Positions 31,378 through 44,603 of a stretch of 64,000 nucleotides of DNA are shown here, piece by piece. Positions within the stretch are counted from its first letter, which is position 1, and each line of letters opens with the position of its first letter. A program made the position numbers and the translations under genes. This stretch comes from Sphingomonas sp. CROZ-RG-20F-R02-07. GTDB lineage: Bacteria > Pseudomonadota > Alphaproteobacteria > Sphingomonadales > Sphingomonadaceae. Under the pieces are notes generated by a model. The model ran no database searches. It was not told the origin of the DNA and saw only the letters and a program-made list of their open reading frames with translations. The stretch is taken from NCBI RefSeq assembly GCF_022662335.1, contig NZ_JAKNQJ010000007.1:1-64000 (forward strand), in the 5' to 3' direction.

Positions 31378-31938
31378 TTGCACGACCACGATCCCGATTT
31401 CGAGCTGATCGCGCGCGTCGGCCGGGGCGACGGATCGGCGACGCGCATGCTGGTCGTGGCGAAATTGCCGCGCATCCTGGCGCTTGCGACGCGCGTGCTG
31501 CGCGACCGCGCCGAGGCCGAGGATGTCGCGCAAGATGCGTTCGTCCGTTCATGGCGGCAGGCGAAGACGTGGCGACGCGGCGATGCGCGGTTCGATACCT
31601 GGCTTCACACCGTGGTGCTCAACCTGTGCCGCGATCGGCTCCGTCGGCGCCGGGATGCGACCGGCGAGACGATGCCCGACCGGGCGGACCCATCGCCGGA
31701 TGCCGAAGCCGGCCTGATCGCGGCAGAGCGCGGCCATGCCGTGGCGGAGGCGATCGCCGCCTTGCCCGAACGGCAGCGCGAGGCCATCCTGCTGGTCCAT
31801 TATCAGGATCTTTCGGGTGTGCGGGCCGCCGCCGCGCTGGACGTGAGCGTGGAGGCGCTGGAATCGTTGCTGGCGCGTGGCCGACGCCGCTTGCGCGACC
31901 ATCTCGCCCCTGCGCAGGAACGCGACGTGCATGACTGA
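31378..31938 (+). CDS. ECF-type RNA polymerase sigma factor
   Basis: This 186-residue sigma-70-family protein has the region 2 helix RDRAEAEDVAQDAFVRSWRQ and FDTWLHTVVLNLCRDRLRRR. Region 4 has AIAALPERQREAILLVHYQD and VSVEALESLLARGRRRLRDH. The length and lack of regions 1.1 and 3 mark an extracytoplasmic function factor. TTG at 31378 begins the chain (LHDHDPDFELI). It runs into the next gene with an 8-nt overlap. Together with the membrane protein and the metal-sensor homologue that follow, it fits a sigma/anti-sigma/periplasmic sensor module responding to envelope or metal stress (inference). Confidence 0.85.
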   Translation: MHDHDPDFELIARVGRGDGSATRMLVVAKLPRILALATRVLRDRAEAEDVAQDAFVRSWRQAKTWRRGDARFDTWLHTVVLNLCRDRLRRRRDATGETMPDRADPSPDAEAGLIAAERGHAVAEAIAALPERQREAILLVHYQDLSGVRAAAALDVSVEALESLLARGRRRLRDHLAPAQERDVHD

Positions 31939-32329
31939 ACCGCTGTCCCTCGAACGCTTTCGCGCGCTCGCCGACGCCTATGGCGGCGTGATCGCGCGCT
32001 GGCCCGAGCGCGAACGCGACGCCGCGCTGCGATTTTCGGCGCATCCCGAAGCCGTCGCGATCCTGCGTGAAGCCGCGACACTCGATGCCACGCTCGACCG
32101 GTGGCGCGTGCCCGCGCCCAATGCGGCGTTGCGCGACCGGATCGTGCGCAGCGCGATGCTTCCGGGCGCGATCACGGCGCGCGCGCGGCTATGGTGGTCG
32201 GGTATCGGTGTCGCGGCGGCGCTGGCGGGCGCCGGAGCGGGTATCGCCACCGTGGCCGTGGCGGCGCCGATCGACATCGCCACTGATGGCAGTACGTCGT
32301 TCGGCGACGTCGCGGCGCAGGACGGCTGA
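31931..32329 (+). CDS. Putative anti-sigma factor / small membrane protein
   Basis: This 132-residue protein has a soluble N-terminal helical part (EPLSLERFRALADAYGGVIA, then RWPERERDAALRFSAHPEAV) followed by one transmembrane segment (SGIGVAAALAGAGAGIATVA, about residues 89-108) and a short periplasmic tail. This layout and its position right after an ECF sigma gene point to an anti-sigma factor that holds the sigma factor at the membrane. No classical zinc ZAS motif is present, and I infer the role from context only. The ATG at 31931 lies within the end of the sigma gene. Confidence 0.6.
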   Translation: MTEPLSLERFRALADAYGGVIARWPERERDAALRFSAHPEAVAILREAATLDATLDRWRVPAPNAALRDRIVRSAMLPGAITARARLWWSGIGVAAALAGAGAGIATVAVAAPIDIATDGSTSFGDVAAQDG

Positions 32330-32887: not shown

Positions 32888-33925
32888 ATGGCGATGCTCG
32901 AACGCCCCGCCCGCCCCGTCACCCACCGGCCGACCATCCGCGATGTTTCGCGGCTGGCCGGCGTGTCGTTCAAGACGGTGTCGCGAGTCATCAACGATCA
33001 ACCCTATGTCAGCGCCGAGAAGCGCGAGCGGGTGAAGGCCGTGATGGCCGAGATCGGATTTCAGCCGAGCCAGGCCGCGCGCGCGCTGGCCGGACGTCGA
33101 TCTCACCAGATCGCGCTGATCTGCGACAATCCCAACCCCTGGTACGTGTATGAGGTGCAGGCCGGCGTGCGCGAACGGTGCGGACGCGACAAGGTGCGGA
33201 TGATCGCGCAGCCCTATGATCGATCGTCGCCCGCCCTGCTGGGCGACATCGTCGCGCTGATCGACCAGGCGCACCCCGACGGCCTCGTGCTGGCGCCGCC
33301 GGCTTGCGACGATCGCCAGGTGATCGAGGAACTGGAGCGACGCGCCATCCCCTTCGTCCGCCTGCAGCCCGGCGCGCGGATCGATCACGTTCCGGCGACG
33401 TCGATCGACAACGAACAGGCGGCGTTCGACATGACGGCGTACCTGATCGGGCTGGGTCATGCCCGGATCGGGTTCGTGACGGGCGAGCGAAGCTACGCCG
33501 CGTCGAGCCAGCGCCTGGCGGGTTATCTGCGGGCGTTGGCGGAGGCCGGCATCGCCGTCGATCTCGACTATATCCGCCAGGGCGAATTCGATTTCGCGTC
33601 CGGAAAGGCGGCGGCGGATGCGCTGCTGGACCTGCCCGCCCCGCCCAGCGCGATCTTCGCGGCCAGCGACGACATGGCGGCCGGCGTGCTCGTCGCCGCG
33701 CATCGCCGCGGGATCGCGGTGCCAGCGATGCTGTCGGTCGCGGGGTTCGACGACGCCCCCCTGGCCGAAATCGTCTGGCCACCGCTGACGACGATCCGCC
33801 AACCCGTCCGGCATCTCGCGGCGGCCGCTGCCGATCTGTTGCTCACCCCCGGCGGCGCCCGGGAACGGCGCCTCGATTACGAACTGGTCGTCCGGGAGTC
33901 GACCGCTGCGCCGCCTGCGGCTTGA
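32888..33925 (+). CDS. LacI-family transcriptional regulator (predicted sulfoquinovose-locus regulator)
   Basis: This 345-residue protein has an N-terminal helix-turn-helix (TIRDVSRLAGVSFKTVSRVI) and hinge (FQPSQAARALAGRRS). The periplasmic-binding-protein-like sensor domain contains PDGLVLAPPACDD, GLGHARIGFVTGERSY, FAASDDMAAGVLVAAHRRG and the C-terminal PLAEIVWPPLTTIRQPV. It is a DNA-binding dimer that responds to a sugar. The gene begins the sulfoquinovose locus, upstream of the MFS transporter. GACACCGTTGTC lies 18 bp past its stop, and the reverse complement lies at the aldo/keto reductase start, making these its probable operators (inference). The start might be the second Met, two codons later. 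Confidence 0.88.
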   Translation: MAMLERPARPVTHRPTIRDVSRLAGVSFKTVSRVINDQPYVSAEKRERVKAVMAEIGFQPSQAARALAGRRSHQIALICDNPNPWYVYEVQAGVRERCGRDKVRMIAQPYDRSSPALLGDIVALIDQAHPDGLVLAPPACDDRQVIEELERRAIPFVRLQPGARIDHVPATSIDNEQAAFDMTAYLIGLGHARIGFVTGERSYAASSQRLAGYLRALAEAGIAVDLDYIRQGEFDFASGKAAADALLDLPAPPSAIFAASDDMAAGVLVAAHRRGIAVPAMLSVAGFDDAPLAEIVWPPLTTIRQPVRHLAAAAADLLLTPGGARERRLDYELVVRESTAAPPAA

Positions 33926-33943
33926 CCGGCCGGTCGGTTAGAT

Positions 33944-33955
33944 GACACCGTTGTC
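33944..33955 (+). promoter_or_regulatory. Predicted LacI-type operator upstream of the MFS gene
   Basis: GACACCGTTGTC, a near-palindrome with a central CG and arms GACA/TGTC, sits between the regulator stop and the MFS ribosome-binding site (AGGAGAG), 20 bp before the ATG. The exact reverse complement occurs at 37862-37873. The shape (even length, central CG) fits LacI-family operators. Confidence 0.6.
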
Positions 33956-33975
33956 GATATAAAGGAGAGACCGGG

Positions 33976-35226
33976 ATGGAAGAGCGCGTCGATGCCAGGC
34001 GGTGGGCGATCGTCGCCCTCGCATTCGCGGCGATCATGCTGAACTACGTCGACCGGCAGGTCATCGCGCTGCTCAAACCGATGCTGCAGGCCGATTTCGC
34101 CTGGAGCGACCGCGATTACAGCCACATGGCGTCCGCCTTCCAATTCTGCGCCGCGGTGTCGTTTCTCGGCACAGGCTGGTTCATCGACCGGATCGGCCTG
34201 CGCAAGGGGTTCGCGATCGGCGTCGCGACGTGGAGCCTGGCGGGCATGGCGCATGCGCTGGTCGGCAGCGTCGCGGGGTTCGTCGGGGTGCGTGCGCTGC
34301 TGGGGGCCGCGGAGTCGATCGGCACCCCGGCGCAGGTGAAGACCGCCGGCATCTATTTCCCGCCCGAACGGCGATCGTTGATGCTGGGCATCGGCAACAT
34401 GGCCTCCAATTTCGGCGCGGTCGTCGCGCCGCTGTCGATCCCGCCGCTGGCGCTTTGGCTCGGCTGGCGCGCCGCGTTTCTGCTCACCGGCGGCCTCGGG
34501 CTGGTCTGGGTCGTGATCTGGTTGATCGTCACGTCGCGGGCCGGGCCGACCACCACACCCGCCGACGACGCGCCCGCCGACCGGGTGCCCTGGGGCGCGA
34601 TGCTGCGGGATCGGCGGCAATGGGCCATCATCGCCGCCAAGGCGCTCAGCGACCAATGCTGGTGGTTCCTGCTGTTCTTCATGCCCGATCTGTTCCACCG
34701 CCTGTTCAACCTGTCGCAAGGCGCGCTGGGGCTGCCGATCGCCTTCATCTATCTGCTTGCCGCGCTGGGATCGCTCAGCGGCGGATTGCTGCCGACATGG
34801 CTGCTGGCGCGCGGGATCGGCATGGATCGCGCGCGCAAGGGATCGATGCTCGTCTATGCCGTGCTGATCCTGCCGGTGCCGCTGGTGCTGCTGACGGACA
34901 ATGCCTGGGTCGCCGCGTCGCTGCTCGGCCTGGCCCTGTTCGCGCATCAGGGATTCTCGACCAACGTGTTCGGCATGACGGCGGATATCTTCCCGTCGCG
35001 GATGATCGGCACCGCCATCGGGATCGGCGCCTTTGCCGGCAATCTGACAGGCATGGCGATGCTCGAGGCCGCCGGTTTCTCGCTCGACAACGGCTATGGC
35101 TATGCGCCGCTGCTGATCCTGTGCGGCGGTTCGTATCTGGTCGGCCTCGCGCTGGTCCAATTGCTGGTGCCGCACTTGACGCTGGCCGAACCCGGCGCCG
35201 CGCGCGTCATGCCGGTGAGCCACTGA
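33976..35226 (+). CDS. MFS transporter (ACS/hexuronate-type), predicted sulfoquinovose(-side) importer
   Basis: This 416-residue protein has 12 predicted membrane helices. The family motif near helix 1 is AIMLNYVDRQVIALLKP, as in ACS (anion:cation symporter) hexuronate/glucarate transporters. GLRKGFAIGVATWSLAGMAH is the loop 2-3 motif and LLGAAESIGTPAQVKTAGIYFP the helix 4 segment. An AGGAGAG box sits before the ATG. It lies between the LacI gene and the sulfoquinovose genes, and no ABC importer is present, so it may carry sulfoquinovose or its glycoside into the cytosol, where the GH31 enzyme acts. The substrate is inferred from context, not from motifs. Confidence 0.8.
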   Translation: MEERVDARRWAIVALAFAAIMLNYVDRQVIALLKPMLQADFAWSDRDYSHMASAFQFCAAVSFLGTGWFIDRIGLRKGFAIGVATWSLAGMAHALVGSVAGFVGVRALLGAAESIGTPAQVKTAGIYFPPERRSLMLGIGNMASNFGAVVAPLSIPPLALWLGWRAAFLLTGGLGLVWVVIWLIVTSRAGPTTTPADDAPADRVPWGAMLRDRRQWAIIAAKALSDQCWWFLLFFMPDLFHRLFNLSQGALGLPIAFIYLLAALGSLSGGLLPTWLLARGIGMDRARKGSMLVYAVLILPVPLVLLTDNAWVAASLLGLALFAHQGFSTNVFGMTADIFPSRMIGTAIGIGAFAGNLTGMAMLEAAGFSLDNGYGYAPLLILCGGSYLVGLALVQLLVPHLTLAEPGAARVMPVSH

Positions 35227-35234
35227 CAGCGAAA

Positions 35235-35258
35235 CGGCCCCGGGATCGCCCGGGGCCG
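35235..35258. terminator. Hairpin between convergent MFS and TonB receptor genes
   Basis: The arms CGGCCCCGGG and CCCGGGGCCG, 10 bp and perfect, around a 4-nt loop (ATCG) lie 8 nt after the MFS stop and about 26 nt before the receptor stop. A bidirectional terminator is likely from the tail-to-tail arrangement. Confidence 0.75.
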
Positions 35259-35284
35259 CCTCGATCCCTCGGGGGCAGGAACGA

Positions 35285-37720
35285 TCAGAAGTTCACGCGC
35301 CCGGTCACCCCGTAATAGCGGTCCGCGTCGCGCGGGATCTGGTAACGGTACGAGCCCGATGGGCCGCCGTTCTGGATCGCCGCCGCGAAGCTCTGGTCGA
35401 GCAGGTTGCGGACCTGGAAGGTCAGGCGAACGCGATCCTTCGCATCGCCGATTCCGGCCGACAGATTGACAAGGCCATAGGAGTGGATCGTGCCGAGCTG
35501 GCGCTGCACCGGGTCGGGCGAAAACAGCGCGAGTTGCTTGGACTGGTAATTGCCCTGAGCCCCCAGGAACAGGTCGATCGCCCGACCCGTGCGCCAACGG
35601 TAATCGGCGCCGAGCGAACCCTTCACCTTGGGTGCGAACGGCAGCGACGTACCGGCAGGGATCACCGCCGTCGCCGCCGCACCGGGCGCCTGGAGGAACT
35701 GGTCGACATGCGCATCGGTGTAGGCGATGCCGCCCGAGAGCGACAGATCGGCGACCGGGCGGAACACGATGTCCGCTTCGCCGCCCCGCGTCGAGACCTT
35801 GCCGGCGTTGGTGAAGCGCGTGACGACGACACCGGCGACCAGATCGGGGTTGTTCGCCTGGAAATTATCGTACTTGGCATAAAAGGCATCGATGTTGAGC
35901 ACCAGCTTGCCGCCGAACAGCGTGTTCTTCAGCCCCACCTCGTAACTGTTGGAGGTTTCCGGCGCGATCACGTTCGTGCCGGTCGCCGTCAGGTTGAAGA
36001 AGACGTTGAACGCCGGCCCCTTATAGCCGCGCGTATAGCCGCCATAGGCCGTCACATTGTGAGTCACGTCGAACTGCAGCGCCGCCTTGCCCGACAGGTT
36101 GGTGTTCGTCGTCTTGTTGGTGAACGCACTCGCCGGCGTGCCGGTGCCGGTCGCCGTTATGGGGAAGCTCGGCTGGATGCCGGGACCCGCCAGCGCCGTC
36201 GTGCGGGTGAGAAACACATTCAGTTGATCCGCCGTCCAGCGCATCCCGCCGATGAAGCGGAACCGATCGGTGAAATTGGCGGTGGCCTGGCCGAAGGCGG
36301 CGATGTTCTTGAACACCGAGCCGTAATCGGACTGGCCGAAGGGCGTGGTCGTCGCCGGCGCACCGGCCGTGCCGCAGGGGATCAGAACCGTCGGCGTGGC
36401 GGCGCCGTTGCAGGCGATGTCGGCGCGCGAATAGATCCGCTCCGATTCCGCCCGCGAATAATAGAGCCCGACGACATAGGAGAGGAACTGGTGCGCCGGC
36501 GACGTGAGGCGCAGTTCCTGGCTGAACGTGTTGCCGGTCTGCGGCCCGACGTCATGAAGCTGGTTGAAGCCGACATACGCCTGCGGCAGGAAATCGCCGT
36601 CGCGGATCTCGGTGTTCCGGTAATCGCGATAGGCGGTGATGCTGGTCACCGTCTGCGTGCCCAGTTCGGTGTCGAGCTGGAGCGAGACGCCATAGCCCTC
36701 CTCCTTCGTGCGGGTGACCAGATTCTGGTTCACCGCGCGCGTGCGGTCGCCGAGCGGCGTCGGCAGCACCGCGAACGCCGGGCTGGTGATCGCCGCGCCG
36801 GCCGCGTTCAGCGCGCCCGTGCCGATCACCTCGGCGCAGCAATTGTCGTCGTCGCGGTGATAGTCGCCGATCAGCGCCACCGTCGTGCGGTCGCTCGGCA
36901 TCCATTTCACCTGCGCGCGGGCACCGTAATGCTCGTAACCGTTCACGCGGTCGCCGGTCGCGACGTTGCGGATGTTGCCGTCGTACCGGCCGTAGAAGCC
37001 GGTGAAGCGCGTCAGCAGCGTGTCGCTCACCGGGAGATTGAGCGCGCCGCGAATGCGCGCCTCGTTGCCGTTCGTGAAATAGCCACCCTCGACATAGCCG
37101 CCCAGATCGCGCGTGGGCTGTACCGACACGATGTTGATGACGCCGGCCGAGGCGTTCTTGCCGAACAGCGTGCCCTGGGGCCCACGGAGCACCTCGAGCC
37201 GTTCGATATCGACCAGATCGCCGAACGCCTCGCCCGATCGCGCATAGACCACGCCGTCGACCACGGTCGAGACGGACGGCTCGCCGGCGATCGAAAACGT
37301 CGTCGTGCCGACGCCGCGCAGGAACAGCGACTGGTTCAGCGTCGTCCCCGATTTCTGGAAATTGAGCGCGGGCACCAGCGTGACCGCGCCCTCGAGCCCC
37401 GGCTTGCCCAGCGCCGAAAGCGCCGCGCCGCTGACGACGGACACCGCGATCGGCACCTCCTGCAACCGCTCGCTGCGCTTCTGCGCGGTCACGACGATAT
37501 CGCCGGTGGGAGCGGCCTCCGGTTGGGACTCGGCCGGCTGCGCCGCGACGCCGGGGGGCGGCGGGCTCTCGGCGGCGGCTTGCGGTGCCGGACTGGAAGC
37601 GACGCCGCCGGAGACGGACGCCTGCGCGTCCTGCGCATCGGCCGGCCGAGCGGCCAGCAACGCCGGAGCGGCGACCCCCAGCAGCATCAGGATTCGCGTC
37701 GTTGCAACCTTCATCATCAT
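35285..37720 (-). CDS. TonB-dependent receptor of the predicted sulfoquinovose locus
   Basis: This 811-residue outer-membrane protein has a signal peptide (LMLLGVAAPALLAARPADAQ) and a Pro/Ala-rich linker, then DIVVTAQKRSERLQEVPIAV, a TonB-box-like strand. The plug has NQSLFLRGVGTTTFSIAGEP, RLEVLRGPQGTLFGKNASAG and VINIVSVQPTRDLGGYVEGG. The barrel ends RYYGVTGRVNF with the terminal Phe signal. The start is one of three consecutive Met codons, preceded by AGGAGAGGA; ATG 37720 is given. It is divergent from the catabolic operon and convergent with the MFS gene. Uptake of a sulfoquinovosyl glycoside such as SQ-glycerol through the outer membrane is inferred from context. Confidence 0.86.
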   Translation of the reverse strand: MMMKVATTRILMLLGVAAPALLAARPADAQDAQASVSGGVASSPAPQAAAESPPPPGVAAQPAESQPEAAPTGDIVVTAQKRSERLQEVPIAVSVVSGAALSALGKPGLEGAVTLVPALNFQKSGTTLNQSLFLRGVGTTTFSIAGEPSVSTVVDGVVYARSGEAFGDLVDIERLEVLRGPQGTLFGKNASAGVINIVSVQPTRDLGGYVEGGYFTNGNEARIRGALNLPVSDTLLTRFTGFYGRYDGNIRNVATGDRVNGYEHYGARAQVKWMPSDRTTVALIGDYHRDDDNCCAEVIGTGALNAAGAAITSPAFAVLPTPLGDRTRAVNQNLVTRTKEEGYGVSLQLDTELGTQTVTSITAYRDYRNTEIRDGDFLPQAYVGFNQLHDVGPQTGNTFSQELRLTSPAHQFLSYVVGLYYSRAESERIYSRADIACNGAATPTVLIPCGTAGAPATTTPFGQSDYGSVFKNIAAFGQATANFTDRFRFIGGMRWTADQLNVFLTRTTALAGPGIQPSFPITATGTGTPASAFTNKTTNTNLSGKAALQFDVTHNVTAYGGYTRGYKGPAFNVFFNLTATGTNVIAPETSNSYEVGLKNTLFGGKLVLNIDAFYAKYDNFQANNPDLVAGVVVTRFTNAGKVSTRGGEADIVFRPVADLSLSGGIAYTDAHVDQFLQAPGAAATAVIPAGTSLPFAPKVKGSLGADYRWRTGRAIDLFLGAQGNYQSKQLALFSPDPVQRQLGTIHSYGLVNLSAGIGDAKDRVRLTFQVRNLLDQSFAAAIQNGGPSGSYRYQIPRDADRYYGVTGRVNF

Positions 37721-37861
37721 TCCTCTCCTGAACGCACCACTGGTTTTCCAGCGAATCCAATGTCTTGCCATGACGCCCACACCCTTTGGCATGTCCGCAT
37801 GCTGCATTGGCGATCATCACGCCGCCATTTAGCTTTTCTTTAGGCCGATTTTGCGCCATCA

Positions 37862-37873
37862 GACAACGGTGTC
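37862..37873 (-). promoter_or_regulatory. Predicted LacI-type operator at the start of the catabolic operon
   Basis: GACAACGGTGTC on the plus strand is the exact reverse complement of the 33944-33955 site. It is flanked as AGACAacggTGTCT, a palindromic extension. It overlaps the GTG start at 37869, so a bound repressor could block both transcription start and translation of a leaderless or short-leader mRNA. It also lies 142 bp upstream of the divergent receptor. Confidence 0.6.
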
Positions 37874-38777
37874 TTACATCGCTCCTCCCGATCGCACTGT
37901 TGCCCTTGGCGACACCGGCCTCACCATCAGCACCATCGCCTGGGGCATGTGGCGGTTCGGCGGCGACGACGTCGGCGAGGCGCGCATCCTCGTCGAAGCG
38001 GCGCTCGACGCCGGCGTCACGCTGCTCGACACCGCCGACATCTACGGCCCCGACAATGGCGAGTCGTTCGGTGCGGCCGAGACGCTGCTCGGGCGGGTGC
38101 TGGCCGAGGCGCCGGCCCTGCGCGACCGCATGGTGCTGGCGACGAAGGGCGGCATCAGCATGGGCGTGCCCTATGACTCGCGCGCCTCGTACCTGGCCGA
38201 GGCGATCGACGCGTCGCTGTCGCGGCTCGGCTGCGAGCGGATCGATCTCTATCAGATCCACCGTCCCGATCTCCTGACGCATCCGCAGGAGGTCGCGCGG
38301 GCGCTGGACGATGCGCGCGCCGCGGGCAAGATCGCGGCAATCGGTGTCTCCAACCACACCCCGGCGCAGACGGCGGCGCTGGCCTCGTTCCTGACGGCGC
38401 CGCTGGTCAGCCATCAGCCCGAATTCTCCGCGCTGGCCGTCACGCCGCTGTTCGACGGGCTGTTCGACCAGGCGATGGAGCGGGGGATGGCGGTGCTCGC
38501 CTGGTCCCCGCTCGGCGGCGGACGGCTCGCCGATCCGCAGGACGCGCGCGCCCAGGCGGTCGCGGCATTGCTCGACGCGAAGGCCGACGAGGCCGGCGTC
38601 GATCGCGCAGCCGCGGCCTATAGCTGGATCATGGCGCATCCGGCGCGCCCCATCCCGATCGTCGGAACCCAGAACGCATCCAGGATCGCGAAGATACCGG
38701 ACGCCTATACGCCACGATGGACCCGGGCCGAATGGTATGCGGTTCTCGAGGCGAGCCTGGGCGAGAAACTGCCATGA
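37869..38777 (+). CDS. Aldo/keto reductase, predicted 6-oxo-glucose reductase (SmoB-like)
   Basis: This 302-residue (beta/alpha)8 reductase begins V/M-SYIAPPDRTVALGDTGLT. The AKR tetrad is visible: Asp in LLDTADIYGPDNG, its Tyr four residues later, Lys in LATKGGISMGVP and His in LYQIHRPDLLTHP. The C-terminal NADP-side segment is PIPIVGTQNASRI. In the sulfo-SMO pathway an AKR reduces 6-dehydro-D-glucose to glucose, and the gene's ATGA overlap with the monooxygenase supports that role. The GTG at 37869 is chosen as the family-like N-terminus; TTG 37851 is an alternative. It could otherwise be a general YdhF-type AKR. Confidence 0.78.
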   Translation: MSYIAPPDRTVALGDTGLTISTIAWGMWRFGGDDVGEARILVEAALDAGVTLLDTADIYGPDNGESFGAAETLLGRVLAEAPALRDRMVLATKGGISMGVPYDSRASYLAEAIDASLSRLGCERIDLYQIHRPDLLTHPQEVARALDDARAAGKIAAIGVSNHTPAQTAALASFLTAPLVSHQPEFSALAVTPLFDGLFDQAMERGMAVLAWSPLGGGRLADPQDARAQAVAALLDAKADEAGVDRAAAAYSWIMAHPARPIPIVGTQNASRIAKIPDAYTPRWTRAEWYAVLEASLGEKLP

Positions 38778-39841
38778 CGGCCGCGTGCGAAGTGAGCTGG
38801 TTTTCGGCGCTCTGCGACGATGACTACGAGTTCCTCGGCGTTTCCGATCCGCAGCTGAAATCGACCTGGGAGCATTGCCGCGACATCGTGCTTCAGGCTG
38901 AAACCGGCGGCTTCGACAATATCCTGCTGCCGTCGGGCTATGCGCTTGGCATCGACACCACCGCCTTCGCCGCCGCGATCGCGACCATGGTGCGCCGCAT
39001 CCGGCTGCTGATGGCGGTGCGTATCGGCGAAAGCTGGCCGCCCCAGCTTGCGCGCCAGATCGCCACCATCGACCGCATCCTGGGCGGACGGCTGACCGTC
39101 AACATCATCTCGTCCGATCTCCCCGGCGAGAAACTCGCCTCCGCGCCCCGCTATGCGCGGACGCTGGAGGCGATGCAGATCCTGAAGACGCTGCTCAACG
39201 GCGGACCGCTCGATCATCAGGGCGAATTCTGGCAGCTCAAGCTCGACGCTCCCGCCGTCTCGACGGTATCCGGCAAATGCCCGCCCCTCTATTTCGGCGG
39301 CCTGTCGCCCGATGCGCGCGAGGCCGCGGCACAGGGTTGCGACGTCTATCTGATGTGGCCCGACAAGCAGGAGGCCGTCCGGGCGATCATGGACGACATG
39401 ATCGCGCGCGCGGCCAGGCACGGCCGCACGCTGAAATTCGGCTATCGCGCGCATGTCGTCGTCCGCGACACCGAGGCGGAGGCGCGCGCCGCCGCGGACC
39501 GCCTGCTGTCGAAGCTGGATGCGGCCGAGGGCGAAGCCATCCGCAACAAGTCGCTCGACACCACCTCCATGGGGGTAGCCGCCCAATCGGCGCTGCGCGA
39601 GAATGCGAGCGAAAGCGGCTATGCCGAAGAGAATCTATGGACCGGGGTCGGCCGCGCCCGGTCGGGCTGCGGCGCAGCGATCGTCGGCGATCCCGATCAG
39701 GTCCTCGCCAAGCTGCGGATGTATCAGGACATGGGGATCGAAGCGTTCATCCTGTCGGGCTATCCGCATGCCGCCGAGGCCGATCTGTTCGCCCGCCACG
39801 TTCTGCCCAAGCTGCGGCACGGCCCACTGACGCTGGACTGA
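38774..39841 (+). CDS. FMN-dependent SsuD-like monooxygenase, predicted sulfoquinovose monooxygenase (SmoC-like)
   Basis: This 355-residue LLM-class (luciferase-like) flavin monooxygenase shows EVSWFSALCDDDYEFLGVSD, GGFDNILLPSGYALGIDTTA, MAVRIGESWPPQLARQIATI, DRILGGRLTVNIISSDLPGE and PLYFGGLSPDAREAAAQGCD, all in the order of alkanesulfonate monooxygenases. In the oxidative sulfoquinovose (sulfo-SMO) pathway such an enzyme uses reduced FMN and O2 to release sulfite and yield 6-oxo-glucose. Coupling to an AKR and a sulfoquinovosidase is the basis for this assignment. A partner flavin reductase (SmoA) is not in the window. The ATG at 38774 gives an ATGA overlap. Confidence 0.78.
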   Translation: MTAACEVSWFSALCDDDYEFLGVSDPQLKSTWEHCRDIVLQAETGGFDNILLPSGYALGIDTTAFAAAIATMVRRIRLLMAVRIGESWPPQLARQIATIDRILGGRLTVNIISSDLPGEKLASAPRYARTLEAMQILKTLLNGGPLDHQGEFWQLKLDAPAVSTVSGKCPPLYFGGLSPDAREAAAQGCDVYLMWPDKQEAVRAIMDDMIARAARHGRTLKFGYRAHVVVRDTEAEARAAADRLLSKLDAAEGEAIRNKSLDTTSMGVAAQSALRENASESGYAEENLWTGVGRARSGCGAAIVGDPDQVLAKLRMYQDMGIEAFILSGYPHAAEADLFARHVLPKLRHGPLTLD

Positions 39842-39900
39842 GGAACGGCGCCGTACCGCGCGCCGACGAAGCCGCGGCAGGCGCCAAGGGAGAGTTGTCG

Positions 39901-41955
39901 ATGGTTGCCAGCGCTTCCTCTCCGCTCGTTGCTGGTATGAGCGGCACGACGCGGCTCCGGCTGATCGCGGTCGACGGGGGCTTCGATCTGTTCGTCGGGG
40001 ACATGCCGGTGGTGAGCCACCGCCCCGCCCGCCCGGCCGTCTTCGTCGGGATCGGCCGTCCGGACATCGACATGTACCGCGGCAACTATGTCCTTTCCGA
40101 CCGGCTCGATGCGCGCGTGCCGCTCGCCCACGCAGCGGTCGACGGAGACACGGTGACGCTGGCGGCGACGGCCACCGGCGCCCCGCTCCTGCGCGTCACC
40201 GTGACCGATGCCGGGCTGGCGATCGCCGCGCTCGATCCCGCGCTCAACCGCTTCTGGCTGCGCTGCGTCGCCGAGCCGGGCGAGCGGCTATGGGGCGGTG
40301 GCGAACAGCTATCCTATTTCGACATGGCCGGTCGCCGCTTCCCGCTCTGGACCTCGGAGCCGGGCGTAGGGCGCGACAAGTCCACGCTGATGACCTTCCA
40401 GTGCGATCGCGATAGCCGGTCCGGCGGCGACTATTGGAACACCAACTATCCGCAGCCGACCTATGTCTCGTCACGCCATTATGCGCTGCACCTCGATACG
40501 ACCGCCTATAGCTGTTTCGACTTTCGCGACCCCGCGTTCCACGAGATCGAATCATGGGCGATCCCCGCCGGGATCGAGCTCTTCGCGGCGGAGCGCTTCG
40601 CCGGCATCGTCACCCAGCTATCCAGCCGCTTCGGCCGCCAGCCCCGCCTTCCCGGCTGGGCCTATGAAGGCGCGATCCTCGGCTTGAAGCAGGGGGCGGA
40701 AAGCTTCGCGCGCATGGAGACGATGATCGCAGCCGGCGCGGTCGTCACCGGGCTCTGGTGCGAGGACTGGGTGGGCCTGCGCGTCACCAGCTTCGGCAAG
40801 CGGCTGTTCTGGGACTGGAAGGCGAACGAGACCCGCTATCCGGGGCTGCGCGCGCACATCGCGGCGCTGGCCGAGCGGGGCATCCGCTTCCTCGGCTACG
40901 TCAATCCCTATCTCGCCATCGACGGCTCGCTCTATGCCGAAGCGGTCGCTGCCGGCTATCTGGTGCTGCGCCGCGACGCGGACGCGCCCTATATCGTGGA
41001 CTTCGGCGAATTCGATTGCGGCATCGTCGATTTCACCAATCCCGCCGCAGCGGACTGGTTCGCCGACCGCGTGATCGGCCGCGAGATGCTCGATTACGGG
41101 CTGTCGGGCTGGATGGCGGATTTCGGCGAGTATCTGCCGACCGACATCCGCCTTCACGACGGCACCGACGGCATGCTGGCGCATAACGCATGGCCGACGA
41201 TCTGGGCGGAGGTGAACGCCCGCGCGATCGCCGCGCGCGGGCGCACCGGCGACGCGCTGTTCTTCATGCGCGCCGGGTTCACCGGCGTGGGGCGCCACTG
41301 CCCGCTGCTGTGGGCAGGCGATCAGTGCGTCGATTTCTCGCGCCATGACGGGATCGGCACCGTCATCCGCGCGGCACTGTCGTCCGGCATGCTCGGCAAC
41401 GCCTATCACCACAGCGATCTCGGCGGTTATACCAGCCTCTACGGCAACGTCCGCACGCCCGAACTGCTGATGCGCTGGAGCGAGCTCTGCGCCTTTTCGC
41501 CGGTGATGCGCAGCCATGAGGGCAATCGTCCCGACGACAATCTCCAGCTCGACGGCGATCCGGCGGTGCTCGCGCATTTCGTGGCGATGACGCGCGTCCA
41601 CGCCGCGCTCGCGCCCTATGTGGGGGCGCTGTGCGATGAGGCCGCGGAAACCGGCCTGCCGCTCCAGCGCGCGCTGCTGCTCGATTGGGAAGAGGATCCC
41701 GGCTGCTGGGGGATCGAAACCCAGTTCGGCTATGGCCGCGACCTGATCGTCGCACCCGTGATCGCGCCCGACCGCGACCGCTGGGCCGCCTATCTTCCTG
41801 CCGGCGCGCATTGGGTGCATCTCTGGTCGGGCGAGCGGTTCGCGGGCGGCCAGACGGTAGAGGTCGCAGCCCCGCTCGGCCGGCCGCCGGTCTTCTGGCG
41901 CGAGGGCAGCGACCACGCCGCGCTGTTCACCGCGCTCGCCGCCGAGGCACCATGA
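39901..41955 (+). CDS. GH31 sulfoquinovosidase (YihQ/SmoI-like)
   Basis: This 684-residue family 31 glycoside hydrolase has the subfamily signatures of sulfoquinovosidases. Residues Arg301 and Trp304 in SFGKRLFWDWKANE match the sulfonate-binding Arg and Trp of E. coli YihQ. Asp407 in WMADFGEYLPTD is the nucleophile, Asp474 in WAGDQCVDFSR the acid/base, and Tyr510 in HHSDLGGYTSLY the third sulfonate contact. The N-terminal half has RLWGGGEQLSYFDMAGRRFP and SGGDYWNTNYPQPTYVSSRH. No signal peptide is present, so it acts in the cytosol on imported sulfoquinovosides such as SQ-glycerol. A GGGAGAG box precedes the ATG. It is the last gene of the operon, 60 bp after the monooxygenase. Confidence 0.9.
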   Translation: MVASASSPLVAGMSGTTRLRLIAVDGGFDLFVGDMPVVSHRPARPAVFVGIGRPDIDMYRGNYVLSDRLDARVPLAHAAVDGDTVTLAATATGAPLLRVTVTDAGLAIAALDPALNRFWLRCVAEPGERLWGGGEQLSYFDMAGRRFPLWTSEPGVGRDKSTLMTFQCDRDSRSGGDYWNTNYPQPTYVSSRHYALHLDTTAYSCFDFRDPAFHEIESWAIPAGIELFAAERFAGIVTQLSSRFGRQPRLPGWAYEGAILGLKQGAESFARMETMIAAGAVVTGLWCEDWVGLRVTSFGKRLFWDWKANETRYPGLRAHIAALAERGIRFLGYVNPYLAIDGSLYAEAVAAGYLVLRRDADAPYIVDFGEFDCGIVDFTNPAAADWFADRVIGREMLDYGLSGWMADFGEYLPTDIRLHDGTDGMLAHNAWPTIWAEVNARAIAARGRTGDALFFMRAGFTGVGRHCPLLWAGDQCVDFSRHDGIGTVIRAALSSGMLGNAYHHSDLGGYTSLYGNVRTPELLMRWSELCAFSPVMRSHEGNRPDDNLQLDGDPAVLAHFVAMTRVHAALAPYVGALCDEAAETGLPLQRALLLDWEEDPGCWGIETQFGYGRDLIVAPVIAPDRDRWAAYLPAGAHWVHLWSGERFAGGQTVEVAAPLGRPPVFWREGSDHAALFTALAAEAP

Positions 41956-42164: not shown

Positions 42165-43349
42165 CTAGACCGCGCCCCGGCGTTCGGTCGAGAACAGGAC
42201 GAGTGCGGCCGTGACCAGCGCGGCGCCGACCGAGGCCGTCGCCGTCCAGCCGCCCCGCTCGAAACTCAATGTCGCGAGCATCGAACCCATTGCGCCGGCC
42301 AGGAACACCATGGTCATGTACACCGCGTTGATGCGGCCGCGCGCCTCGGCCGCGATCGAGAAGAGCACGCGCTGGCCGAGCACCTGGTTCAATTGGGTCG
42401 CCCCGTCGAGCAGCACGGCCGCGGCGGCGAGGAGGATCAGCGCATGCGCCGCCGCGGCCCAGCCGGCGAGGAGAAAGGCACCGATCGCGGCCCTCAGCGC
42501 CACCGCCGTGCCCGCTCGAACATGGCCCCGGTCGCCGAGCCGCCCGGCGATCGGGGCCGCCAGCGCGCCGCCGGCACCGGCCAGCGCGAACAGCGCGATA
42601 CCGCCCTGGCCCAGACCGAAGCGCCGCGCGAGCAGCAGCGGCACCGCCGTCCAGAACAGGTTGAACGCGGCGAACATCGTCGCCTGATAGGCCGTGCGCC
42701 GCCGGATCGCCGGGGTATTCACCAACAGCCGAACGCTCGATCGCAGAAGCTGACCGTATCGCAGATCGGGCTGCGGGCGGCGTTCCGGAACGGTGCGACT
42801 GACGAGCAGCGCAAGCGCCGCCATCCCGATCGCGGCAAGCCCGAAGATCGTGCGCCAGCAGGCCACCGCGGCGACCCCGTTCGCCAGCGGGCGCGCCAGC
42901 ATGATCCCGGCGATCAGCCCGCCCATGATGTTGCCGACGATCCGGCCGCGCCGGCTCTCGGGCGCCAGATGGGCGGCGAGCGGCACCATGATCTGTGCGC
43001 CGACCGAGCAGAACCCGGTGAGAAAGGAAAACAACAGGAAGCTCACCGCGCCCGTCGCCAGCCACGTGCCGAGCAACCCGAAACAGGCGCCGCCCGTCAG
43101 CGCCAGGATGAGCCGCTTGTTCTCGACCCGGTCCGCGAGCGAGACGACGAAGAACAAGCCCGCCCCATAGCCGAGCTGGGTCGCGGTGACGACCAGACCG
43201 GCGACGGCGCCGTGCAGGCCCAGCGCCGGCGCGATCTCGCCGATCAACGCCTGCGCATAATAGAGGTTCGCGACCATCAGGCCGCAGGCGATGGAGAAGA
43301 CGGCGGTCAGGCCCGGCCCGATGCCCGGTGCGGGCGCTTCGCCGCTCAT
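42165..43349 (-). CDS. MFS transporter (arabinose-efflux/YgaY-like)
   Basis: This 394-residue protein has about 12 helices and starts MSGEAPAPGIGPGLTAVFSI. SIACGLMVANLYYAQALIGE, the loop 2-3 segment FVVSLADRVENKRLIL, VGAQIMVPLAAHLAPESRRG and GRINAVYMTMVFLAGAMGSM are typical of drug/sugar efflux MFS proteins. The ATG at 43349 makes an ATGA overlap with the upstream Gfo/Idh gene; ATG 43355 is two codons longer. Whether it belongs to the sulfoquinovose locus is unclear, since it runs in the opposite direction and no shared operator was seen. Confidence 0.8.
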   Translation of the reverse strand: MSGEAPAPGIGPGLTAVFSIACGLMVANLYYAQALIGEIAPALGLHGAVAGLVVTATQLGYGAGLFFVVSLADRVENKRLILALTGGACFGLLGTWLATGAVSFLLFSFLTGFCSVGAQIMVPLAAHLAPESRRGRIVGNIMGGLIAGIMLARPLANGVAAVACWRTIFGLAAIGMAALALLVSRTVPERRPQPDLRYGQLLRSSVRLLVNTPAIRRRTAYQATMFAAFNLFWTAVPLLLARRFGLGQGGIALFALAGAGGALAAPIAGRLGDRGHVRAGTAVALRAAIGAFLLAGWAAAAHALILLAAAAVLLDGATQLNQVLGQRVLFSIAAEARGRINAVYMTMVFLAGAMGSMLATLSFERGGWTATASVGAALVTAALVLFSTERRGAV

Positions 43350-44404
43350 CGCCATGCCGCGCGCTCCTCGGCGGTGAGTGGCAATTCCACGGCGCGGCGT
43401 TCGCGGGACGACAGGCTTGCGGCTTCCACCACGGCCATGACCGCGAGCGCCTCGATCGGCGGCACGGGCGCGGCCCCCGCTCCTCGAAGCGAAGCGGCAA
43501 GCCTATCGTAGAAGCGGCGCTGATCGCCAAGGGTCGCCGGGATCGTGCGTTCCGTCCCGTGCCGGTAGATGGTGAGGCCGTCGGGATCCGCACCCCAGCC
43601 TTCCGCGCCCGGCTTCGTGCCACCGAGCAACAACGCTTCCTGCCGATCCGGCAGGCGCTTCACGAAACTGCCCTCCGTACCATGGGCGACGAAGCGATGC
43701 GTTCCCCCCGCGACGAGCATGCCGGCGTGCAGGATGACGCGCCGTTGCCCATAGAACAGGATGACATGAGCCCAATCGTCGGTCACCGCGCCGGGCCGCT
43801 GGCACGCAAGGCTCGCCTGTATCAGATCGGGCAAGCCGAAGAGTTGCAGCGCTTGGTCGACGAGATGCGGCCCGAGGTCGAACCAGACGCCGCTGCCCGG
43901 CCCCGCGCGTTCGCGCCAGCGATCCCGGACCTCGGGGCGGAAACGATCGAGATGCGATTCGAAATGCACGATGTCGCCGACCACGCCAGCGGCGATCGCG
44001 TCGCGGACGGTGAGGAAGTCGCTGTCCCAGCGCCGATTGTGAAACACCGAAAGCTGCCGGTCGGCGCGCGTCGCCGCGGCGAGGACGCTTCGTGCTTCGG
44101 CCAGGTCGAGCGCGAACGGCTTGTCGATCACCACATGCTTGCCGGCCTCGATCGCGGCAAGCGCGAGCGGCGCATGCGCTTCGTTGGGCGTGGCGATCAC
44201 GATCAGATCGATGTCGGGCGAGCGAATGATGGCGAGCGGATCGGCATCGACCCGGATGCCCGGCAGGTCGGCATGCACCTTTGCGGCATCGCGCGATGCG
44301 ACGGCGCACAGCGTCAGACCGTCCGAGGCGGCGATCAGCGGCGCGTGGAAAGTTTTGCCCGAAAAGCCATAGCCCAGCAGGCCGACGCGCAGAGGATCGT
44401 TCAT
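43346..44404 (-). CDS. Gfo/Idh/MocA family oxidoreductase (YdgJ-like)
   Basis: This 352-residue protein has LRVGLLGYGFSGKTFHAPLI, the NAD-binding fold with the S-G-K-T-F-H-A-P motif of the YdgJ/IolW scyllo-inositol dehydrogenase subgroup. It also has IDLIVIATPNEAHAPLAL, KHVVIDKPFALDLAEAR (catalytic Lys in D-K-P) and SGVWFDLGPHLVDQALQLFG in the substrate half. The ATG at 44404 is preceded by AAGGAAG and is preferred over the in-frame ATG at 44446. It is probably a sugar or inositol dehydrogenase with NAD(P). It forms a two-gene operon with the MFS transporter downstream, so perhaps a sugar derivative is handled and transported. Confidence 0.82.
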   Translation of the reverse strand: MNDPLRVGLLGYGFSGKTFHAPLIAASDGLTLCAVASRDAAKVHADLPGIRVDADPLAIIRSPDIDLIVIATPNEAHAPLALAAIEAGKHVVIDKPFALDLAEARSVLAAATRADRQLSVFHNRRWDSDFLTVRDAIAAGVVGDIVHFESHLDRFRPEVRDRWRERAGPGSGVWFDLGPHLVDQALQLFGLPDLIQASLACQRPGAVTDDWAHVILFYGQRRVILHAGMLVAGGTHRFVAHGTEGSFVKRLPDRQEALLLGGTKPGAEGWGADPDGLTIYRHGTERTIPATLGDQRRFYDRLAASLRGAGAAPVPPIEALAVMAVVEAASLSSRERRAVELPLTAEERAAWR

Positions 44405-44603
44405 CGCATTCGCTTCCTTGGTCTGCCGCCGGGGCGTGATGGCCACAGGGTAGAGTCACCGCCGCGAACAGCGGAGTCTCGCCAACGTTCCACTCCGCCG
44501 TCCGACACGATTATTCCGAGCCATGCAGCGCTCGCTCGAAAAACTTTGGCTCCAGCGACCCGCCCGGACGTTCCAGTCGCACGTCCTTATCCGAGGTTCT
44601 TCC

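Follow-up and report, generated by a model that had tools for sequence, protein, structure and literature searches.

How would a sphingomonad bring sulfoquinovose (SQ), or its glycoside sulfoquinovosyl glycerol (SQGro), into the cell, and under which control? The question is raised by six neighbouring genes in a 64,000-nt stretch of the genome of Sphingomonas sp. CROZ-RG-20F-R02-07 (contig NZ_JAKNQJ010000007.1, here contig C61; the whole stretch is hereafter the window). SQ is among the most abundant organic sulfur compounds (PMC12890257; statements taken from papers with a PMC number refer to the parts of their texts that were available), and its import by sphingomonads is not described in the literature searched. 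The six genes very probably encode a sulfo-SMO (sulfo-ASMO) pathway for growth on SQGro or SQ. Beyond this, the evidence leans towards a wider proposal: that sphingomonads own a dedicated SQGro outer-membrane receptor subfamily co-inherited with the SQ monooxygenase (SMO), that some of the lineage have a LacI regulon, marked by GACANCGNTGTC, in which receptor, MFS transporter and catabolic operon are joined, and that a GH31 or an NAD-dependent GH188 sulfoquinovosidase (SQase) module is exchanged around this core. If true, the head group of the plant sulfolipid would have its first TonB-dependent route.

Relatives of the SMO (E<=1e-60) were present in 105 of the 397 genomes sampled from the family, in 37 of 96 genera. 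Neighbourhoods were counted for 104 of these 105 genomes, excluding that of the window; 76 were full, extending at least 9 kb upstream and at least 8.5 kb downstream of SMO. The cut-offs were 200 bits for the TonB-dependent receptor (TBDT), 150 bits for MFS, LacI and GH188, 180 bits for the aldo/keto reductase (AKR) and 300 bits for GH31. In the 76 full neighbourhoods an AKR was found 74 times, a TBDT 72, an MFS transporter 57 and a LacI regulator 54 times; 42 contained all four. The arrangement is lineage-wide in the family and, since the same set recurs across it, the gene set is not a product of chance. A second set, of named loci, comprised the best 80 of at least 584 and therefore leans to close relatives; its 54 full loci showed AKR in 47, TBDT in 44, MFS in 33 and LacI in 29. 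In the window, the six genes were found at the places and in the order that an earlier reading of the letters (the sequence-only reading) had given. They and the two predicted operators are as follows.

32888..33925, + strand: LacI-family regulator, predicted to be the likely cluster repressor (Pfam LacI, Peripla_BP_3)
33944..33955, no strand: predicted operator GACACCGTTGTC, 20 bases 5' of the MFS start codon (one of two in the window and of eight in the genome)
33976..35226, + strand: MFS transporter, D-galactonate/anion-symporter type, which would import across the inner membrane (Pfam MFS_1; D-galactonate transporter match; in 83 of 397 genomes)
35285..~37717, - strand: TBDT, proposed outer-membrane importer of SQGro/SQ (Pfam Plug, TonB_dep_Rec_b-barrel; in 97 of 397 genomes)
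37862..37873, no strand: predicted operator GACAACGGTGTC in the promoter of the divergent TBDT and AKR genes; the likely AKR GTG start lies inside it (palindrome scan of window, genome and relatives)
37869..38777 (frame listed from TTG 37851), + strand: AKR, putative SquF/SmoB-like 6-dehydroglucose reductase (Pfam Aldo_ket_red; SmoB the best solved match)
38774..39841, + strand: putative FMNH2-dependent SMO, SquD/SmoC-like (Pfam Bac_luciferase; SmoC match)
39901..41955, + strand: GH31 SQase of the YihQ/SmoI type (Pfam Glyco_hydro_31; by eye without a signal peptide)

AKR and SMO overlap by 4 bases and the gap between SMO and GH31 is 59 bases, for which reason AKR-SMO-GH31 is read as an operon. 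The TBDT gene is divergent from it and separates it from LacI and MFS, both of which are on the + strand. The open frame of the TBDT extends to 37807, with a signal peptide that starts, by eye, near 37717. The AKR probably starts at GTG 37869 rather than at TTG 37851, because the conserved palindrome overlaps the preceding stretch and because V/M-S-Y, read from the GTG, is common to several relatives.

The enzyme assignments were compared with solved structures. The GH31 enzyme scored 961 and 959 bits with the Agrobacterium SQase chains and 657 with E. coli YihQ; chains 8r56 and 6pnr, named only GH31 or alpha-glucosidase, gave 760 and 724 bits, and the next GH31 enzyme 153. The NCBIfam model PRK10426 matched at 871 bits (cut-off 553). 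The residues claimed in the sequence-only reading were all in place: R301, W304, D407, D474 and Y510 align with positions 301, 304, 405, 472 and 508 of YihQ chain 5aed, so that the sulfonate site (R301, W304, Y510) and the Asp nucleophile and acid/base (D407, D474) are kept. In addition, K263 and E288 match the K and E of the Agrobacterium enzyme, which we take to be part of the KERWY set. The SMO scored 386 (7oh2) and 382 bits with SmoC chains (53 and 54% identity), 221 with another alkanesulfonate monooxygenase and 186 with SsuD, and its W195, R225, H227 and H332 align with SmoC chain positions 206, 236, 238 and 343, which presumably contact SQ. The AKR had SmoB as its best solved match at 171 bits, with YdhF close at 137; it was 61% identical to the AKR of the Novosphingobium pentaromativorans cluster and 38% identical to a SmoB-type AKR of Rhizobium sp. 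SL42. On sequence alone, the AKR is the weakest of the three enzyme assignments. The sulfo-SMO interpretation put forward earlier is well supported by sequence (SMO 386 bits with SmoC versus 186 with SsuD, GH31 961 with the Agrobacterium SQase and 657 with YihQ, AKR 171 with SmoB versus 137 with YdhF).

A count over the genome gave 48 TBDT barrels. Any nearby TBDT is therefore weak evidence, and the specificity of the subfamily was examined instead. Scoring the two best candidates per genome at E<=1e-150, TBDT and SMO occurred together in 94 of the 397 genomes; 11 had SMO only, 3 TBDT only and 289 neither (Fisher p = 3e-74, descriptive only, with genomes treated as independent). The TBDT lay within 10 kb of SMO in 84 of the 94 shared genomes, farther away on the same contig in 4 and on another contig in 6 (G301 included). 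There was a single TBDT match per genome among the two candidates scored, except for two pieces in G206. Two of the three TBDT genomes lacking SMO (G267 and G327) have the MFS gene adjoining the TBDT. This TBDT subfamily is specific, and as a marker that tracks SMO (94 of 97 genomes) it would help to annotate uptake. Its solved relatives (the pesticin receptor at 92 bits, then weaker matches, mostly siderophore receptors) say nothing on its substrate.

Two further outer-membrane arrangements were seen near SMO relatives. On a plasmid of Spirosoma oryzicola (L234 9953-18235), two gene pairs stand after a relative 49% identical to the SMO: sigma factor/FecR and the outer-membrane pair SusC/SusD. 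This points to a TonB-linked route in Bacteroidota too. Downstream of the SMO cluster of Sphingomonas paeninsulae (L225 11505-18966) lie a second luciferase-like monooxygenase, a TauD-type dioxygenase, an MFS gene and a TonB receptor, possibly a second organosulfur island.

The nearest solved structure to the MFS protein is the D-galactonate transporter (103 bits), an anion carrier, which would suit a sulfonated sugar. At E<=1e-100, the MFS was found in 78 SMO-positive and 5 SMO-negative genomes. The sequence-only reading had placed a TonB plus MFS route in the position of an ABC importer. The absence of an ABC importer holds for the cluster, but the genome has one of sugar type elsewhere. A BPD_transp_1 search of the genome gave six matches at four places, none on the window's contig; by their reading frames only, these are of phosphate, molybdate, osmolyte and sugar type, the last adjoining an apparent GH43-like gene and a TBDT of its own. 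With all six permease matches off the contig, the idea that the cluster has an unseen partner in a sulfonate or sugar ABC importer was rejected.

The window contains two copies of the palindrome GACANCGNTGTC, one at the MFS gene and one at the AKR/TBDT promoter. It is present eight times in the 3.9 Mb genome, and the same pattern read backwards three times. Among the eight sites, the core GACACCGTTGTC or its complement is found only in the two of the cluster, and the longer AGACANCGNTGTCT is unique in the genome to the AKR site. By eye, two of the six copies outside the cluster fall within a single adhesin-like repeat gene; three others lie in a gene resembling that of ribosomal protein S1, in the part of another TBDT gene that encodes the TonB box and in a short-chain dehydrogenase/reductase gene. 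The sixth, on contig C23, is between apparent nitrate-assimilation genes. The LacI protein has both a helix-turn-helix and a periplasmic-binding-like domain (Pfam). From their positions, the palindromes are likely to join MFS and the TBDT/AKR promoter under one regulator, LacI, which would bind them and respond to an inducer. With this operator, the regulon can be predicted in the window's group.

In relatives, the AKR palindrome was kept in seven of the eight loci with the same divergent arrangement (window included), in three of them as ATAAGACAACGGTGTCTTAT; in locus L130 it was not kept. It was also present at the MFS gene in loci L036, L037, L038, L039 and L115. The 104 family loci had 26 sites in 19 loci, while seven control palindromes gave 0, 1, 1, 2, 4, 5 and 8 sites. 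Twenty of the 26 were near the 5' ends of frames: AKR in eight cases, LacI in four, MFS and GH188 in three each and TBDT in two. A broader set of 195 loci, which includes repeats of the same genomes, had 70 sites in 44 loci, compared with 5 sites in a single shuffle of single bases; some of the 70 are TonB-box coding sequence. An inverted-repeat scan with a 6-base seed was blind to the operator, the arms of which are shorter than the seed. In a blind search upstream of TBDTs, perfect 10-base palindromes were no commoner than in shuffles; among near-palindromic 14-mers the operator word ranked third, in 4 of 145 regions (at most 2 in shuffles). Two near-palindromic words ranked higher in that search, GGCTTCATGAACCC (15 of the 145 regions) and GCGGAAATTGCCGC (9 regions); they may be coding sequence, or operators that other sub-lineages use.

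Put together, the proposed working of the locus would be as follows. The TBDT would carry SQGro/SQ over the outer membrane and the anion-type MFS would bring it into the cytoplasm, where GH31 would split the glycoside into SQ and glycerol. The SMO, with FMNH2 from an unlinked reductase, would oxidise C6 and free sulfite, yielding 6-dehydroglucose, which the AKR would reduce to glucose. LacI would repress MFS, TBDT and the AKR-SMO-GH31 operon via the GACANCGNTGTC operators. The TonB plus MFS route is supported by the genome-wide co-occurrence and by the palindrome common to both promoters; import itself, and SQGro/SQ as substrates of TBDT and MFS, would be consistent with these associations.

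Several points weigh against this interpretation. It is drawn from sequence comparison. The co-occurrence counts take genomes as independent, uncorrected for relatedness. Eleven SMO genomes had no TBDT at E<=1e-150; seven of these have a linked TBDT at 395-479 bits, below the cut-off, and the other four had none in the stretch examined. Specificity is lower for the MFS: at E<=1e-100 it was missing from 27 of the 105 SMO genomes, and in only 52 of the 78 shared genomes did it lie within 12 kb of SMO, so that its link to SMO looks looser than that of the TBDT. The palindrome is not lineage-wide; it was near the 5' end of a cluster gene in 14 of the 104 family loci (2 of 50 GH31-type and 10 of 46 GH188-type loci). 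Since few family loci carry it, it is a feature of part of the lineage. Finally, the cluster has no linked flavin reductase. A linked one had been suspected to be missing, and the genome search bore this out: the matches to PF01613 (one) and PF03358 (four) were all on other contigs, and any of these could supply FMNH2. Among the full family neighbourhoods, in which the search was for the SmoA-type reductase only, one of 76 had it. A linked FMN reductase is not required for the pathway, because N. aromaticivorans lacks SsuE according to a review (PMC9594981).

These points leave room for an explanation in which the enzymes are those of sulfo-SMO but TBDT and MFS serve otherwise, or in which the TBDT is dispensable, SQ and SQGro being small enough to pass porins. 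To our knowledge, E. coli and Agrobacterium manage without a TBDT; the 48 barrels in the genome and the often unlinked MFS also agree with such an explanation. It would, however, leave unaccounted for that one TBDT subfamily is shared with SMO by nearly all the genomes that have it, mostly at close range, and that palindromes stand at both the MFS and the TBDT/AKR promoters, and we regard it as rather unlikely. The dedicated receptor, with SQGro or SQ as substrate, is preferred.

The SQase itself varies among relatives. In the 76 full family neighbourhoods, GH31 was present in 47, GH188 in 27, neither in 2 and both in none; all 104 neighbourhoods gave 50, 46, 8 and none, and the 54 full named loci 22, 25, 7 and none. 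The GH188 assignment rests on one member, in locus L046, the others having been found by similarity to this gene; it scored 365, 362 and 334 bits with chains 8qc3, 8qc2 and 8zn9, and the next protein 81. 8QC2 is a GH188 structure (PMC11465081), and GH188 enzymes have been found in sulfo-SMO clusters, GH31 and GH188 being complementary (Kaur 2023, PMC10755693). When mapped on a rapidly built tree of SMO, in which 39 of the 109 inner branches are open, the GH31 and GH188 types need, by a rough count, at least seven changes among 97 labelled rows, which makes the SQase an exchangeable module. This replacement of GH31 by a GH188 SQase, never both together, also bears on the idea that the substrate of monooxygenase and glycosidase is some sulfonated or anionic glycoside other than SQ. 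Substrates are inferred and the AKR shares no more than 38% identity with a SmoB-type AKR, but the full SQase residue set and the SmoC-level similarity of the SMO make a substrate other than SQ very improbable.

Glycerol genes were also linked to SMO in part of the family. By raw counts, GlpD was found in 27 and GlpK in 13 of the 76 full neighbourhoods, and on N. pentaromativorans plasmid pLA3 GlpD directly follows SMO; the window's own cluster has neither. The linkage fits SQGro as the imported glycoside, because hydrolysis of SQGro frees glycerol. A sulfur-scavenging system of the SsuD kind, rather than carbon catabolism, is hardly credible: the SMO shares a superfamily with SsuD, but it scored 250 bits in the SsuD family profile, far below the cut-off of 518, is 200 bits nearer to SmoC than to SsuD, and is linked to an AKR and an SQase and, in part of the family, to GlpD/GlpK. 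After SMO in some Sphingomonas stands a gene read by eye as a molybdopterin sulfite dehydrogenase (L046 11509-12927), which would oxidise sulfite; similar genes were found in 9 of the 54 full named neighbourhoods and in 1 of the 76 full family ones.

The enzymology of the cluster is ordinary: the pathway is known, and known in this family. The Agrobacterium tumefaciens sulfo-SMO cluster (Sharma 2022, via reviews) is alike in its GH31 SQase, SMO and AKR. It reportedly also has a linked flavin reductase and a GntR regulator. Its importer is of the ABC type (PMC9594981), whereas the window has LacI, TBDT and MFS and no linked reductase. Agrobacterium and N. aromaticivorans DSM 12444 (the latter with SquD and SquF) are the organisms in which the sulfo-ASMO pathway has been characterised (PMC9594981). 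PMC12890257 names the same two, and its available text has no mention of TonB, LacI or the outer membrane. The DSM 12444 system (Liu 2021, via PMC9594981 and PMC12890257) is like that of the window in having an SQ monooxygenase and an AKR, found through YihQ linkage, in having no linked SsuE and in belonging to the same bacterial family. As this pathway is published for a sphingomonad, nothing in the enzymology is new, and the sequence-only reading, which had thought the transport variant and its regulation worth describing, overstated the novelty. New details, as far as seen, are the receptor subfamily and the operator, both well supported as associations. In another Novosphingobium (pLA3), the order TBDT-GH31-LacI-AKR-SMO-GlpD-GlpK is unlike that of the window. 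In the GH188 clusters of Kaur 2023, GH188 stands where the window has GH31, as it does in some of the window's relatives; the legend to figure 5 of that paper lists a GH188 cluster of Sphingomonas sp. Leaf17, with the pathway unnamed there, and its available text does not mention TonB (PMC10755693). Novosphingobium dominated the labelled SQ consumers in a mangrove incubation, for which sulfo-SMO was predicted (PMC13372026). No paper tying a TonB receptor to SQ was found in the open literature, most subscription papers and supplements being beyond the search; by title, no open paper on SQ and LacI concerned a sphingomonad cluster, and the text of a LacI regulon survey (PMC4052901) contains no Sphingomonadales or sulfo term.

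A rhizobial SmoC-type cluster differs in having a Gfo/Idh/MocA gene that matches GH188, a GntR regulator, a flavin reductase and a TRAP importer. In rhizobia there are also monooxygenases 72-76% identical to the window's SMO with no AKR or SQase above 60 bits nearby in all 11 loci examined. In five of these (L227 651-10059, L065, L067, L068 and L230), SMO adjoins a LacI gene from which a sugar ABC importer, an arabinonate-type dehydratase and an HpcH-type aldolase diverge; the dehydro sugar may go there via an Entner-Doudoroff-like route, or the linkage may be accidental.

Just before the cluster in the window (31378-32329) lie an extracytoplasmic function (ECF) sigma factor (PRK05602, 255 bits) and, downstream of this gene, a small frame with no Pfam match that may be its anti-sigma partner. 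Downstream of the cluster, on the - strand (42165-44446), are a second MFS gene, with weak family matches only, and a Gfo/Idh/MocA oxidoreductase (PRK11579, 411 bits). The latter scored only 41-50 bits with the GH188 genes found in relatives, whereas genes closer to it, at 295 and 308 bits, are located near SMO in loci L052 and L059.

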